Source of the DNA: Corynebacterium sp.
GTDB lineage: Bacteria > Actinomycetota > Actinomycetes > Mycobacteriales > Mycobacteriaceae
Direction: 5' to 3'
NCBI RefSeq assembly: GCF_030532325.1
Contig: NZ_JAUNLS010000003.1
Coordinates: forward strand, 133,293-197,292
Length of the DNA stretch: 64,000 nucleotides
Shown here: in pieces, positions 40,006 to 45,980 of the stretch
Position numbering within the stretch: the first letter of the stretch is position 1
How the letters are laid out: every line of letters begins with the position of its first letter
The notes under the pieces: generated by a model
What the model was told of the DNA's origin: nothing
The model's database searches: none
Seen by the model: only the letters and a program-made list of their open reading frames with translations
Made by a program: the position numbers and the translations under genes

Positions 40006-40185
40006 TTACTCGCCCTGCTTGCCCAGGGCCTCATCGGCCTTGTCGCGAGCGGCGTCGATTTTGTCCGCCTTGTCCTCGCCCAGCTTGCCCTTGGCAGCCT
40101 CAGCGCCCTTGTCCAGAACCTTATCGGTAGCCTCTTCGCCCTTGTCGGAGTTCAGAGCGTCCTTGGCCTTGTCCATGATTCCCAT
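40006..40185 (-). CDS. Small Rv0909-like (MT0933 antitoxin family) protein
   Basis: 59-residue, highly charged Ala/Lys/Asp-rich helical protein starting MGIMDKAKDAL. It resembles the MT0933/Rv0909 family annotated as antitoxins, and also general stress proteins of CsbD-like composition. The ATG at 40185 has AAGGAGTCACC upstream, a strong ribosome binding site. No toxin gene is adjacent, so a toxin-antitoxin role is not supported by context; a stress or DNA-associated role is equally possible. Confidence 0.7.
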   Translation of the reverse strand: MGIMDKAKDALNSDKGEEATDKVLDKGAEAAKGKLGEDKADKIDAARDKADEALGKQGE

Positions 40186-40427
40186 GGTGACTCCTTTCAT
40201 AAAAAATTCGCTTCTAGGGTTACAGGGCCCCACGGTACATACATGCCGTGGGGCTCGCCATGATGACAGCGAGTGAGGGCTTTGCTCGGAAGCTGCGAGC
40301 CTCGGATGCGCCCGGCACAAACTAGCGCTGAGCTGCGGCGCGCCGCCACACCGTAAGGGTTTCTAAAAGTACGCTGATAGCGTTGACAGCTCTCGCCAAC
40401 CACACCCCCGTTTCAAGGACACCCACT

Positions 40428-41678
40428 ATGCCCGAAGCCACCACACGCACCATCCCGGCTTTTGGCCTCTACTGGCCCGGCAAGGAGGAGGCTGCCGCAC
40501 AGGCTTCGAGCCCGTGCCGGCCGGAGGCGCTGGAGGTACTCAGTGGCACCGGCTCCCCTTTCACTCACGGCAACACCATCTCCGAGGCGGACAACCTCGA
40601 CGCACTCAAGCACATGGTCCACCACGGGGTTAAGGCGGATGTCATCTACATCGACCCGCCGTACAACACGGGCAAGGACTTTGTGTACCGGGATAACTAC
40701 CGCAAGCGCCGCGAGCAGCGCGCTTCAGACTTTGGGCAATGGCACGCCGACTGGTTGTCGATGATGCTGCCCCGGCTCATCCTTGCCCGCGAAGTGCTGG
40801 CGAAAACAGGCGTCATCTTCGTGTCCATCGGCGAGGACGAGTGCGCGCACCTGCGGCTGGTGATGAACGAGGTCTTCGGCGAGGACTGCTTCGCCGGGCA
40901 GTTCGTGTGGAAGAAGGGTGGTACTGGCAAGAACGACTCTAAGTTCGCGGTGGTCGAGCACGAATACGTACTGTGCTACGTGCGCTCCCAGGACAGCCCG
41001 GGCTTTAACCTCGATGAGTTCGCGCACACCAGCACCAAGTACAACCACAGCGATGAAAAAGGTAACTATTCGTTGGTGCGGCTGGATTCCAAGACGCTGG
41101 GCTATCTGCCCACTCTGGACTTTCCTATCACCGGGCCCGACGGCAAGCAGTACCTCCCCCACCAGCCAGCCGGCAAGGAGAAGGTGGCCCGTTGGCGCTG
41201 GGGAACCGACATGGTGGCTGAGCGCTACGAGGAGCTGGTCTTTAGCCGCGGGTTTGTCTACACCAAGAACTATGAGAAGAAGGGGGCGCGGCCCCGCTCA
41301 CTACTCGACGGCGAGCGCTTCGGGGTCACCCGCGCCGGGCGTCGCGACGCCGAGGAAGCACTGGGACACAAGGGCGTGTTTGAGTTCCCCAAGCCGGTGC
41401 GCCTCATCAGCCATCTCATTGCCATTGCGGGCCCCGCCGATGCCGTCGTGCTCGACTTCTTCGCCGGATCTGGCACCACGGCCCAGGCGGTACTCGAGCT
41501 CAACCACGCCGACGGCGGCACGCGCCGCTTCCACCTCGTGCAGCTGCCCCAGCCCACCGCGGCCAACAGTGCAGCGGCCAAGGCGGGTTTTGCCACGGTG
41601 GCCGATATTTGCGTCGCACGAGTGAATGCTGTGGAGAAAGGCTGCTTTAGCCACCTGCGGATCCCGGCGGCGCACTAG
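40428..41678 (+). CDS. Orphan adenine-N6 DNA methyltransferase
   Basis: 416-residue DNA methyltransferase with the order of motifs of the beta class: catalytic motif IV DPPYNTGKD near 78 comes first and the SAM motif LDFFAGSGTTAQAV lies near 345. The middle (about 140-320) is the target recognition region. It resembles type III Mod subunits but is shorter, and no restriction gene is beside it. The ATG at 40428 has AAGGA upstream; an in-frame TTG at 40383 was rejected. The recognition site cannot be read from sequence. Confidence 0.85.
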   Translation: MPEATTRTIPAFGLYWPGKEEAAAQASSPCRPEALEVLSGTGSPFTHGNTISEADNLDALKHMVHHGVKADVIYIDPPYNTGKDFVYRDNYRKRREQRASDFGQWHADWLSMMLPRLILAREVLAKTGVIFVSIGEDECAHLRLVMNEVFGEDCFAGQFVWKKGGTGKNDSKFAVVEHEYVLCYVRSQDSPGFNLDEFAHTSTKYNHSDEKGNYSLVRLDSKTLGYLPTLDFPITGPDGKQYLPHQPAGKEKVARWRWGTDMVAERYEELVFSRGFVYTKNYEKKGARPRSLLDGERFGVTRAGRRDAEEALGHKGVFEFPKPVRLISHLIAIAGPADAVVLDFFAGSGTTAQAVLELNHADGGTRRFHLVQLPQPTAANSAAAKAGFATVADICVARVNAVEKGCFSHLRIPAAH

Positions 41679-41725: not shown

Positions 41726-42763
41726 CTATTTCAGCGTTGGCGCGGGCTTTTCCTCGACCTCGCCCTGCTCCACCGTGCCTGCCGGGCGGCCGGGGATGCC
41801 AAAGAAGTCCAGCACCTTATCGGTGGCAAAGCCGGCGCCGGCGGCTTTGGCGTCGTCGCTGCGCCCGCCGGGCCACACGTGGCTGCCGCCGCCGATGCGG
41901 ATGTGCTGCAGCGGGGCGTCACAGCCCAGCCAGGTTTCCTGCAGCGCATTGTTGGTCAGGCGCACCGTGTGGATGGGCCCGGAGCAGTTGTTGCGCTTCT
42001 GGTGCTCATTGAGCACCTCCGGAACAGAGGAATAGTGCACGCCGTGGCGCTTGCCGCCGTAATAGCTCACCACAGGGTCATCCGTACCGTGGATGTCCAA
42101 CCGGCCCACCGGGGCCTGCGCGCAGCCCTCGTGAATGCCGTCGTAGTAGGCCGCCGAAACCGTGGCCACAGAGCGGAAGGTCTCCGGCATGCGGCAAGCC
42201 AGGAAAGCCGCAAAACCACCGCCGTTGGACAGGCCAGCGGCGTAGATGCGGGAATCATCCACCGTGTAGGTCGCGCGCAGGCCGTCGATGATCTTCTCCA
42301 CAAAGTCGAGGTCCTCCTCCGCAGTGGTCACCGCGTAGGGCGCCGGAGACCACGCGGCATCCTTCCCTAGCGGGTAGGCCAGGATCGCCTCGGCGGCATC
42401 CATCTGGGAGTAGTTCTGAATCTTCTCCGCTGATTCCTTCCAGCCGTGGAAGAGCAGGACCACCGGCCACTTCTTCTCGGGGTCGTAGTCCTTGGGAACG
42501 TGGAGGCGGAACTGCCTGCCCGAAGGCAAATTGATCACCTTGGTCTCGCCCGGTTCGGGGCCCACCAGCGGCGCGGACAGCGGGATGCCCAAAGGAGACT
42601 TCTCATCCCAGGGCCCGCGGTGCGCCACCGAGGTTTCGGGCTCCGGCGAGGAGCAGGCCGCCACAGCGCCCACACACACGGCCGCAGAGACGGCCGCGAG
42701 TACACGAGAGCACGCGCGGGCAAGTCCTCCTCGCCGAACTCCACGTTCCGGGTTGGTCACCAC
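41726..42763 (-). CDS. PHB-depolymerase-like esterase lipoprotein
   Basis: 345-residue secreted esterase of the alpha/beta hydrolase fold, similar to the LpqC/feruloyl esterase group. The N-terminus has basic residues, a hydrophobic stretch (about 17-35) and a lipobox-like VAACSS with Cys near 37. The catalytic Ser is in AAGLSNGGGFA; Asp (GTDDPVV) and His (GGGSHVW) follow. It starts at GTG 42763, four bases from the ABC exporter gene, so it is probably its third operon member. The substrate is unknown. Confidence 0.8.
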   Translation of the reverse strand: MVTNPERGVRRGGLARACSRVLAAVSAAVCVGAVAACSSPEPETSVAHRGPWDEKSPLGIPLSAPLVGPEPGETKVINLPSGRQFRLHVPKDYDPEKKWPVVLLFHGWKESAEKIQNYSQMDAAEAILAYPLGKDAAWSPAPYAVTTAEEDLDFVEKIIDGLRATYTVDDSRIYAAGLSNGGGFAAFLACRMPETFRSVATVSAAYYDGIHEGCAQAPVGRLDIHGTDDPVVSYYGGKRHGVHYSSVPEVLNEHQKRNNCSGPIHTVRLTNNALQETWLGCDAPLQHIRIGGGSHVWPGGRSDDAKAAGAGFATDKVLDFFGIPGRPAGTVEQGEVEEKPAPTLK

Positions 42764-42766
42764 AGC

Positions 42767-44539
42767 TTAGTCGCGTCCCTTCTGCCAAGCGTTCCACATG
42801 TGAGAATAACGGCCTTTAGAATGTAGCAGTTCCTCGTGGGTTCCCCTCTCAACCACCCTGCCCTGGTCCATAACCAGCACCTCGTCCGACTGCGCGGCCT
42901 GGTCCAAGCGGTGCGCCACGATAATGGCCGTGCGCCCGGCGGTGACCTCCGCGGCAGCAGCCTCAAGGGCACCCGCGCCCGCCGATCCGGCCTCCGCGGT
43001 GGCCTCATCCATGACCACCACCGCCGGATCCAGCAGCAGGATGCGCGCCAGCGCCAGCTGCTGGGCCTCCACCGGATCGAGCTGCTGGCCGCGCGCGCCC
43101 ACGACGGTGTCGAGGCCATCGGCCATCCGCTCGAACCAATCGGCGTGCACCCGGGCCAAGGCCTGCTTCATCTGCGCATCGGTGGCGTCCGGGCAGGCCA
43201 GAGACAGGTCCGCGCGCAGCGTGCCGGAAAAGACGTGTACCTCCTGGGAGATGAGGGCCAGGCGCTGGCCGCGTTCGACGTCGGAAAGCAGGCGTACCTC
43301 TACCCCATCAATGGTGACCGTGCCGCTATCCGGCACCCGCAGCCCCGCCAGCAGCGCGGCCACAGTGGACTTGCCCGCGCCCGAAGCACCCACCAGCGCA
43401 ATGACTTCACCGGGCTCGGCGTGCAGGCAGACATCGCGCACGGCCCAGCGCTGCCCGTCCCCGGCGCCGCCCGCGGGCCCGTAGGCAAAGGACACCCCGT
43501 CCAGGCAGACCTCACCGGTTGGGTCGGGGGCACCAGCCGGCGGCACGGGGGCGGGCGGATCCTTGACCACGCCGGCGATGCGCGCCAGGGAGGCGTAGCC
43601 GGACTGGATGGTATCGAGCACCATCATCAGTGAGCGCATGGGGCCACGCAGGCGGATAAGCATGAGCATCGCCGCGGTCACCGCACCCACACTCAGCGCG
43701 CCCGCGCGCACCGCATAAAAGCCCACGATGAGCCCCACCACCAGCATGAGGCACTCCACCACGGAAACCCACGCCTGCAGCACCATCAGCGTGCGCCGCG
43801 CGCGGTAGCCTGCGTGGGAGACCGCGAGCGAGGACTCGTTGATGGAATCGTGCATCTGCTGCTCCATGCCAAAGGCGCGCACGGTGTCCCGACCGTGGAT
43901 GGCCTCGAGGACGCGCCGGGCGCGCTCAGCCATGGCCGCGCGCTCGGTGCTGTAGCGCTCCGGCGCCACCTTGAGGTAGTTGCGCGAGGCAATCACGTAC
44001 AGCGGGGCGGCTGCAACCACCACGGCGAGGAACTGCCACTGCAGCCCCACCAGCGCCACCGCGGTGGTGCCGATGGCGAAGATCGAACTCGACAGCGCCG
44101 GCACCGTGGTGGTCACGGCGGAGGATAGCTCGGCCACGTCATCCGTGGAGCGCGAAACTAGATCACCGGTACCGGCCTCCTCCACGCGGTGCACCGGCAG
44201 GCCCAGCGCCGTACCCACCATCTCCTCGCGCATGCCGGCGATGACGCGCTCGGTGACCTTGGACAGCGCATAAAAACCGGCGGCCGAGGCGCAGGCGGAA
44301 ACCACCGCGGCGGCAGCCAGCCCGCCGCCGAGGGCTCCCAGGCGCGCGGCGGAGCCGGCGGGGCTTAAGACGGCGTCGACAATGCGGCCCAAGAGAATGG
44401 GCACCACGACGTTGCCCACGGCGCCAAGGACGAGTAGCAGCACGGACAGCACAGTCCAGCCGCGCGCGCGTGGCACGGTGCGCACCACCGTGGAGACAAC
44501 CCCGCGGACCTCGGGCCAGGTGGCAGTGGGAAAACGCAT
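42767..44539 (-). CDS. ABC exporter half-transporter with intact ATPase motifs but lost signature
   Basis: 590 residues: membrane domain with about six helices (about 25-320) and an NBD. Walker A GASGAGKST at 384, Q-loop Gln at 432 (ALISQEVHVFSG), Walker B VVVMDEAT at 511-512 and the H-loop His at 543 (IIVAHRL) are present. The LSGGQ signature is replaced by LDPVE (about 487). The partner gene 44541-45980 has the opposite pattern. The ATG at 44539 is one base from the partner's stop. The transported substrate is unknown. Confidence 0.88.
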   Translation of the reverse strand: MRFPTATWPEVRGVVSTVVRTVPRARGWTVLSVLLLVLGAVGNVVVPILLGRIVDAVLSPAGSAARLGALGGGLAAAAVVSACASAAGFYALSKVTERVIAGMREEMVGTALGLPVHRVEEAGTGDLVSRSTDDVAELSSAVTTTVPALSSSIFAIGTTAVALVGLQWQFLAVVVAAAPLYVIASRNYLKVAPERYSTERAAMAERARRVLEAIHGRDTVRAFGMEQQMHDSINESSLAVSHAGYRARRTLMVLQAWVSVVECLMLVVGLIVGFYAVRAGALSVGAVTAAMLMLIRLRGPMRSLMMVLDTIQSGYASLARIAGVVKDPPAPVPPAGAPDPTGEVCLDGVSFAYGPAGGAGDGQRWAVRDVCLHAEPGEVIALVGASGAGKSTVAALLAGLRVPDSGTVTIDGVEVRLLSDVERGQRLALISQEVHVFSGTLRADLSLACPDATDAQMKQALARVHADWFERMADGLDTVVGARGQQLDPVEAQQLALARILLLDPAVVVMDEATAEAGSAGAGALEAAAAEVTAGRTAIIVAHRLDQAAQSDEVLVMDQGRVVERGTHEELLHSKGRYSHMWNAWQKGRD

Positions 44540-44540
44540 G

Positions 44541-45980
44541 CTAGGCCCCCTTTCCTGCGCAGGCGGCGGCCTTCCAGGCCGGCGAGGTGGTGTAGACCAC
44601 CGTGGGGCGGGTGCCACGTACCTGCGCCACGCGCTCGACGATGACCTGCTCCGTCACGGAGTCCACGGCCGTAGTGGGATCCTGCAGGATGAGCAGCTCC
44701 GCCTCGGTGGCCAGAGCCCTGGCCAGGGCCACGCGCTGGCGCTGGCCGCCGGAAAGGTTGCCGCCGCGCTCGCCCACCATGCGCTCAAGGCCGCCCGGGA
44801 TGTCCTCTGCGGCCGCGGCCCACAAGGCGCGCTCGGCCACCGCCGGATCCTCGGAAATGTTGCTGGCCACGGTTCCCTCAAAGAGGTCCGCCCGGTGCGG
44901 GGCCACGATGGCCACACTGCGGTCCAGGTGCTCGATGCCCTCCGGCGCGTGCTCCGGGATCACGCTCAGCCCCGGGCGCAGCGCCGGCAGGCTGGCCTCC
45001 GGATAGTGCGCGAAGTCCGCGCCGAGCACCCCGCGAATTCGCTGACCGCTGGCTTGGGCGTTGGCCAGCGTGGAGGCGATATTCTTACCCAGCATGGTCA
45101 TCGGCGTGATGACGAACTGCGTCAGGCCCACCACGGTGATGAGCTCGCCGATGCTCAACGTGCCCGCCAGCGCTAGGAAGCCGGCGGCAACGCCCACCGC
45201 GCCCACGTAGAGGGCGCCAATGGCCTCCGTGGCGGCGTTGAGCCGAGCCTGCGCGGCGTTGGCCTCCACGGTCTTCTCGTAGGCCGCGCCGGAGACCGCG
45301 TTGTAGCGGCTGCGCACGGTGGAGATGGCCCCCAGCCCTTTGAGGATGCGCAGCCCCTGCACCACGTCGGTGGCCATGGCGGCCGCCCGTGCCAGGGCCT
45401 TCTGCCGCGTGGCGGACTTCGCCCGCAGCGGGCGCGCCGCGCGCAGGGAGATGTAGACCACCAGCGGCCCGCCGGCGAAGATGGCCAGGCCCAGCGGCAG
45501 GTGGATGAGAGATGTCATGATGGCCACGTAGAGAATCGCCGTGGCCTCGCCGGCAGGAAAGACCGTCATCATCACGGCAAAGGACACACGCTGCACGTCC
45601 GTGGAGGCCACCGAGAGCAACTCGCCGGCCGTGCGGGCACGCCCCGCCATGCCGCGCGGATCCTGGATGCGATCAGTAACCGCCATGCGCAGCTCGTGGG
45701 CGATCTCCACGCGCGCTCGGACCAGGAAGGAGCGCGCGAACCACGTCACCACGATGTTCACCGCGAACACACCCACGAGCGCGCCCAGCCAGGTCAGCAG
45801 CGCGGCGGCCTCGCCCGTGCGCACGGCCTCATCGATGGCATGCCCCACGATGACCGGCGTGGTGCCGTTGGACAGAAAACCGACGGACATCAACAGCGCC
45901 GCCGGGATGGTCTTCTCCTTGCGCGCGAAGAGGGTTTTGAGCAACCAGCGGGGATCATCGGGCGAGGGAAGACGTGTCAT
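44541..45980 (-). CDS. ABC exporter half-transporter with degenerate NBD
   Basis: 479 residues: membrane domain with about six helices (1-310), then an NBD of about 156 residues. Walker A is missing altogether. The Q-loop region reads VAPHRADLFEGTVASNI without the Gln. LSGGQRQRVALARAL (409-) is intact, Walker B reads LLILQDPT where DE is expected, and the H-loop His is replaced (VVYTTSPAW). It must act with its neighbour as a heterodimer. The start at 45980 follows TACAAT by eight bases. Confidence 0.88.
   Translation of the reverse strand: MTRLPSPDDPRWLLKTLFARKEKTIPAALLMSVGFLSNGTTPVIVGHAIDEAVRTGEAAALLTWLGALVGVFAVNIVVTWFARSFLVRARVEIAHELRMAVTDRIQDPRGMAGRARTAGELLSVASTDVQRVSFAVMMTVFPAGEATAILYVAIMTSLIHLPLGLAIFAGGPLVVYISLRAARPLRAKSATRQKALARAAAMATDVVQGLRILKGLGAISTVRSRYNAVSGAAYEKTVEANAAQARLNAATEAIGALYVGAVGVAAGFLALAGTLSIGELITVVGLTQFVITPMTMLGKNIASTLANAQASGQRIRGVLGADFAHYPEASLPALRPGLSVIPEHAPEGIEHLDRSVAIVAPHRADLFEGTVASNISEDPAVAERALWAAAAEDIPGGLERMVGERGGNLSGGQRQRVALARALATEAELLILQDPTTAVDSVTEQVIVERVAQVRGTRPTVVYTTSPAWKAAACAGKGA

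Follow-up and report, generated by a model that had tools for sequence, protein, structure and literature searches.

The subject of this analysis is a pair of adjacent genes on the minus strand of a 64,000-nucleotide stretch of Corynebacterium sp. DNA, here called the window. They encode two half-transporters, A and B, which together would form an ATP-binding cassette (ABC) exporter with a single ATP site. One base (44540) separates the stop codon of A from the ATG of B. Pfam finds in both proteins an N-terminal ABC_membrane domain fused to a C-terminal ABC ATPase domain, the ATPase match of A being partial: PF00664 matches A at 82 bits, and PF00005 covers just profile positions 53-136 of 137. 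By domain order, and by a fold like that of solved exporters, both proteins are type IV (ABCB-like) half-exporters. Their features are as follows.

44541-45980, minus strand: protein A, ABC half-exporter with a pseudo-nucleotide domain, 479 residues (open reading frame, motifs, Pfam, AlphaFold2)
45027-45980, minus strand: transmembrane domain of A, residues 1-318 (Pfam and AlphaFold2 model)
44916-45026, minus strand: remnant of the deleted Walker A lobe of A, residues 319-355, boundaries set by the analyst (relaxed selection, lower model confidence)
44895-44900, minus strand: former Q-loop of A, a conserved Pro-His replacing Pro-Gln, residues 361-362 (homologue alignment)
44742-44756, minus strand: intact signature LSGGQ of A, residues 409-413 (motif reading)
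44661-44696, minus strand: degenerate Walker B of A (LLILQD), then the intact D-loop (TTAVD), residues 429-440
44574-44594, minus strand: H-loop region of A without its His (YTTSPAW), residues 463-469
42767-44539, minus strand: protein B, ABC half-exporter with a complete catalytic half-site, 590 residues (open reading frame, Pfam, AlphaFold2)
43481-43483, minus strand: A-loop Tyr353 of B (alignment)
43364-43390, minus strand: Walker A of B, GASGAGKST, residues 384-392
43244-43246, minus strand: Q-loop Gln432 of B
43067-43081, minus strand: destroyed signature of B, LDPVE, residues 487-491
42986-43009, minus strand: Walker B Asp-Glu and altered D-loop of B (DEATAEAG), residues 511-518
42911-42913, minus strand: H-loop His543 of B

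Each ATP site of an ABC dimer draws on both proteins: one provides the A-loop, Walker A, Q-loop, Walker B and H-loop, its partner provides the signature, and the D-loops sit at the centre of the interface between the nucleotide-binding domains (NBDs) (PMC7756269). A search for GxxxxGK[ST] through all 479 residues of A finds no such motif. The Q-loop Gln of A is replaced by His ('VAPHRADLF'), and its Walker B reads 'LLILQDPTT', with Gln for Asp and Asp for the catalytic Glu. Its signature, read from the translation, is GGNLSGGQRQRVALARAL and is undamaged. In B, 'GASGAGKST', 'LISQ', 'VVVMDEAT' and 'IIVAHRL' are intact and 'LDPVE' occupies the position of LSGGQ. An earlier note on this DNA had described A as lacking Walker A, the Q-loop Gln, the Walker B DE and the H-loop His whilst keeping a perfect signature, and B as retaining Walker A, Q-loop, Walker B and H-loop with LDPVE in place of LSGGQ; it had also placed A one base upstream of B. 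The motif reading and the coordinates agree on each count. The D-loop, which that note did not mention, obeys the same split, being retained in A (TTAVD) and changed in B (TAEAG). The protein that donates the signature also contributes its D-loop to the opposite site.

The site made from the A-loop, Walker A, Q-loop, Walker B and H-loop of B with the signature and D-loop of A is complete and conserved. The opposite site is without the P-loop, Q-loop Gln and H-loop His of A and the signature of B, and usually also without the Walker B of A and the D-loop Asp of B. These motifs argue that A and B form an obligate heterodimeric type IV ABC exporter with exactly one ATP site, a reading given a probability of about 0.86. 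Heterodimer formation would be forced, because by the composite-site rule AA or BB homodimers could build no site. Transport is then probably powered by a single ATP per cycle. The expectation of the earlier note that exactly one functional site would remain draws support from the same rule and from the joint presence of both losses in 186 of 186 homologous pairs.

The pairs were assembled in several steps. Protein A served as the query against 242 Corynebacterium genomes, the source genome included, and matched in 120 of them at E <= 1e-40. In 100 other genomes of the genus the match is to the short form of A, 44-66% identical and spanning most or all of the protein, the remainder being partial or more distant; a sequencing error or frameshift hiding a Walker A, the objection raised in advance by the earlier note, is excluded by this recurrence. 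In the family, 401 genomes were searched, 213 genomes in 23 of 31 genera matched at E <= 1e-60, and 40 loci were chosen from these. A class-level search with an A profile gave matches at E <= 1e-50 in 157 of 296 genomes, which may include ordinary exporters, the P-loop state having been read solely in named loci. Families f19 and f20 include several genomes with five A-profile matches at E <= 1e-50. The loci taken comprised 120 from the genus list, the 40 from other genera of the family, named contigs, and 49 at class level (L307-L355), one of which (L337) is a second pair in the source genome. Among the 211 entries (window included) with both A and B rows, 186 pairs were kept: 115 from the genus including the window, 40 from the family, 5 named and 26 from the class. 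Twenty-four entries were dropped because the signature region of either protein contained gaps or ran off the end of the locus, and L117 (G120) was removed by hand. The last had been considered as a natural A-B fusion in a single open frame, and was rejected on account of a run of N between the genes.

Across these 186 pairs no A protein has a P-loop, a Q-loop Gln or an H-loop His, and every one has SGGQ and the D-loop Asp. Every B protein has a P-loop and a Q-loop Gln and none has either signature glycine; Walker B DE is present in 179 of 179 readable B proteins and the H-loop His in 178 of 178. In the genus, A is followed by B on one strand in 118 of 118 pairs, with a spacing of -60 to +100 bases in 112.

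A wider search of the phylum provides an outgroup. Of 27 loci read, the A-like protein lacks a P-loop in 12, six of these coming from genomes outside the class, and possesses it in 15, all from outside the class; partners were taken for these 15 and for five of the 12. In the 15 outgroup pairs the B profile fits both proteins better, by score, than the A profile does, and the 'A' there is the first, LSGGQ-bearing gene. Its partner also has a P-loop in 15 of 15, together with a near-normal signature in which Ser and the second Gly are kept (LSAGE, LSAGQ, LSLGQ, LSQGQ, LSSGQ, FSAGE). The Walker B of the first protein is DD, a mild Glu-to-Asp change, in 11 of 15 and DE in 3, one being unread. The outgroup resembles ordinary asymmetric exporters such as TM287/288. 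Each of the five further P-loop-less A proteins with a partner taken (2 of them from outside the class) adjoins a B without either glycine. The check on homologues proposed in the earlier note, namely whether the two losses co-occur, is borne out: both are present in all 186 pairs and neither deep loss is found in the 15 outgroup pairs. As the two-P-loop outgroup is free of both, the deep losses in A and B appear to occur jointly or not at all among the pairs examined.

Several points weigh against the single-site reading. The Walker B is still DE in 5 of the 186 A proteins, and the D-loop Asp is kept in 20 of 179 readable B proteins, 12 of them with SLID or SLLD. The A proteins were gathered with the window protein or with a P-loop-less A profile, so that finding A without a P-loop is to some extent a consequence of the sampling; loci were chosen regardless of the adjoining B. 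The 186 pairs are akin to each other and are not independent events. The AlphaFold2 models are of monomers, and the single ATP is inferred from sequence.

Motif reading showed the single-site architecture in numerous genera of the class, in a small number of genomes elsewhere in the phylum and in TetAB of C. striatum. The design is not peculiar to the source genome and, judged by its motifs, is a widespread actinobacterial variant of the asymmetric heterodimeric exporter. The searches aimed at A/B pairs covered Actinomycetota, and absence in other phyla is not claimed. Contigs from all prokaryotes were scanned with patterns based on the LSGGQ helix and the D-loop, and the matches listed are mostly ordinary ABC ATPases. 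Motifs were read in 10 of 80 listed loci (L227-L235, L246); among the matches listed, seven actinobacterial A proteins lack a P-loop (L227-L232, L235), a more distant Streptomyces locus (L233) has one, and L234 and L246 have ordinary motifs. As a control within the source genome, 18 loci were picked by likeness to A and their frames by motif patterns. A P-loop and a [LIVFM]SGG[QEM] signature are found together in 16 of the 17 other ABC-ATPase frames; only L006, 2 kb away from L004, departs from this, and it resembles an ordinary asymmetric partner.

In A the whole Walker A lobe, which would hold the P-loop, has gone. From the end of the transmembrane domain (TMD) to the signature there are 96 residues in A, compared with a median of 161 in 188 B proteins, leaving A short by about 65. 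The AlphaFold2 model of A (mean predicted local distance difference test score, pLDDT, 87.8) has four strands after the membrane domain, and that of B (pLDDT 88.5) has nine in its nucleotide domain, counting strands at least three residues long. The best Protein Data Bank matches of A include the heterodimeric exporters TM287/288, TmrAB and MsRv1273c/72c, and those of B are ABCB-type exporters; alignments to A mostly have a root-mean-square deviation near 9 and inform on fold, not on details.

Measured from the end of the TMD to the signature, the lobe interval is bimodal across 214 A proteins: 117 have 80-129 residues and 97 have 140-199, and the analyst drew the line between short and long at 130. 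The long-interval proteins, in other genera, keep the lobe with a substituted P-loop, for example GELLGVVARDPADAVSLL in L228. Since related A proteins retain the lobe in this state, its deletion appears to be a secondary event that followed P-loop substitution. A quick LG+G4 tree of A was built from 124 rows, thinned at 80% identity, with short copies left out and the lobe columns excluded. The short-lobe state needs four changes on this tree, also when well-supported branches only are counted, although the program warned of long branches meeting and the count of changes is approximate. As regain of the lobe is unlikely, these changes would represent about four separate deletions: in the main clade with its kin, in L140, in L154/L155 and in L229.

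Selection on what is left of A has been strong. Among close orthologues (67-71 overlapping pairs), the median ratio of nonsynonymous to synonymous substitution rates (dN/dS) in A is 0.071 for the NBD, 0.090 for the TMD and 0.218 for the lobe remnant. The corresponding medians for B (78 pairs) are 0.099 for the membrane domain and 0.103 for the nucleotide domain. The remaining nucleotide domain of A is under strong purifying selection and is at least as constrained as the rest of the protein, which opposes simple decay.

The homologue series, running from two P-loops, through a dead P-loop with its lobe, to a deleted lobe, suggests an evolutionary path. The ancestor would have been an ordinary asymmetric exporter, its first half having mostly a Glu-to-Asp Walker B and its second half LSAGE. 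It would then have lost the second site completely, and the useless lobe would later have been deleted in several lineages including the present one. It is considered likely, though with less assurance than the single site of A and B, that an actinobacterial exporter family obliged to use one ATP per cycle exists, in which the second site was abolished in a common ancestor and physically deleted several times.

A link to a relative with a reported role comes from the second pair in the source genome (L337, G000:C31:28664-32800), also of the single-site type, in which the Walker B of A is DE. Via its A protein, which is 42% identical to TetA over 471 residues, TetAB on plasmid pTP10 (NC_004939.1, L356) was reached; TetAB was not listed in a plasmid search with the window A. 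TetA of C. striatum resembles A in lacking a P-loop, in its short lobe (the end of the TMD and the signature are at least 114 residues apart), in its intact LSGGQ, in its His for the Q-loop Gln and in the absence of an H-loop His, although it is only about 34% identical to the window A. TetB resembles B in its intact GTSGAGKST, Q-loop Gln, DEATAEAGS and H-loop His, with IPPEV as signature; it differs in that the annotated protein is shorter and the A-loop position aligns to a gap. Annotated TetB (528 residues) aligns to a relative in two blocks and, in the region of the last membrane helix and the A-loop that separates these, is some 70 residues shorter. The TetAB family cut-offs (NCBIfam NF000506, NF000103) are missed by A (132.2 bits against 1025) and by B (235.2 against 999), and the second pair, at 348 and 479 bits, also falls under them. 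A review describes TetAB as an ABC transporter expelling tetracyclines and beta-lactams (PMC8304765). Because this reported tetracycline exporter shares their anatomy, pairs with the single-site plan probably work as transporters, and kinship with TetAB suggests small-molecule efflux for A-B. No mention of the single-site anatomy of TetAB was found in the open-access literature.

Parallels can be drawn with known asymmetric exporters. TM287/288, TmrAB and BmrCD are like A/B in fold and polarity, with a weak Walker B in one half and a weak signature in the other. They differ in possessing a P-loop in both halves (present in 0 of 186 A proteins here), and both of their sites can hold nucleotide. 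The general rule for asymmetric exporters places the weak Walker B and the weak signature on opposite halves (PMC7756269). Pdr5 and the fungal PDR transporters come closer in one respect, as every motif of one site is changed, across both NBDs (PMC7756269); they differ in being single chains of order NBD-TMD-NBD-TMD, whilst here the order is TMD-NBD and two genes are involved. The Walker A of Pdr5 is retained with Lys replaced by Cys, no deletion being mentioned in the available portion of the source, which describes Pdr5 as among the largest degrees of deviation (PMC7756269). In P-glycoprotein, ATP hydrolysis and transport persist in mutants that have a single intact catalytic centre (PMC4846820). 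OmrDE of Ornithinimicrobium was considered as a member and rejected, its motifs being described as highly conserved in both halves save for a Glu-to-Asp change in OmrD (PMC11109279). On this evidence OmrDE is an ordinary asymmetric exporter. A family of half-exporters without a P-loop was sought in the open-access literature and no description was found. StrV/StrW of Streptomyces, an exporter pair of an antibiotic cluster, are possible kin.

Downstream of B, after three bases, lies a further gene.

41726-42763, minus strand: putative esterase with a lipoprotein-like N-terminus by the analyst's reading (PF00756, PF10503)

It is probably the third gene of an A-B operon and may mark a specific ester or lipid substrate. 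An esterase stands behind B in 60 of 160 loci, many of the 160 being cut soon after B; sought behind B in the 40 loci from other genera, it gave no match. Further along, the window holds a DNA methylase gene (PF01555) at 40383-41678 and, beside it, a small MT0933-like protein (PF14013) at 40006-40320.

Other accounts of the pair have to be weighed. It might be an importer or a lipid flippase on the exporter fold and not a drug-type exporter, given that the structural matches of the A model and of the B model both include IrtAB and YbtPQ, two importers with this fold, and that an esterase gene follows B. This is judged unlikely: the nearest relative found with a reported role is the efflux pump TetAB, and none of the four neighbouring proteins classed is a siderophore protein, no wider search having been made. 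It is improbable, too, that A and B are not exclusive partners and that either forms mixed pumps with halves of the second pair, despite the presence of a pair of the same type in the same genome (G000:C31). A adjoins B in one invariable order throughout the genus pairs, and cross-pairing would in any case still give one site and leave the main claim unaffected.

There is a slim chance that some new mode of binding, perhaps involving the conserved His where the Q-loop used to be, lets the dead site retain a nucleotide or a different ligand. The Pro-His motif has its His in 159 of 186 A proteins, and according to a review the degenerate sites of known degenerate transporters bind MgATP about as tightly as their canonical sites do (PMC7756269). 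Those transporters, however, possess a P-loop, that of Pdr5 having Cys for Lys (PMC7756269), whereas in A the P-loop has gone along with its strand and helix and the lobe is replaced by a short remnant, with a pLDDT of 68-77 over residues 321-370. Finally, the notion that A is a decaying gene in an exporter being lost, with the missing lobe a step on the way, can be set aside as highly implausible, for although A is without most ATPase motifs and single drafts contain damaged copies (A interrupted by stops in G089 and G125, B split into separate frames in L053, L061 and L130), SGGQ and the D-loop Asp are invariant in all 186 A proteins, the short A is carried by 100 other genomes of the genus and the dN/dS of its NBD, lower than that of its own TMD, already contradicts decay.

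Under the single-site reading, one ATP bound between the Walker A of B and the LSGGQ of A would close the NBD dimer asymmetrically at the live site, whilst the dead interface would probably act as a nucleotide-free hinge. The helical subdomain of A would have been retained to supply LSGGQ and to couple to the membrane domain, and hydrolysis by Glu512 of B would reset the pump.

The role of the degenerate site in transporters such as CFTR, MRP1, TAP and Pdr5 is a long-standing question: must ATP stay bound there as a clamp? If the one-ATP family is real, one NBD would be purely a donor of signature and D-loop, and the cycle would need neither nucleotide nor P-loop in the degenerate site. TetAB, reported to be an antibiotic efflux pump, is built on the same single-site plan. 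A natural and widespread exporter family without that site, removed by evolution and not by mutation, would make the question directly testable, and the homologue series offers ready stages, from two P-loops to a dead P-loop with its lobe to a deleted lobe. Compared with Pdr5, in which Walker A is still there, the A/B family would be a cleaner test.

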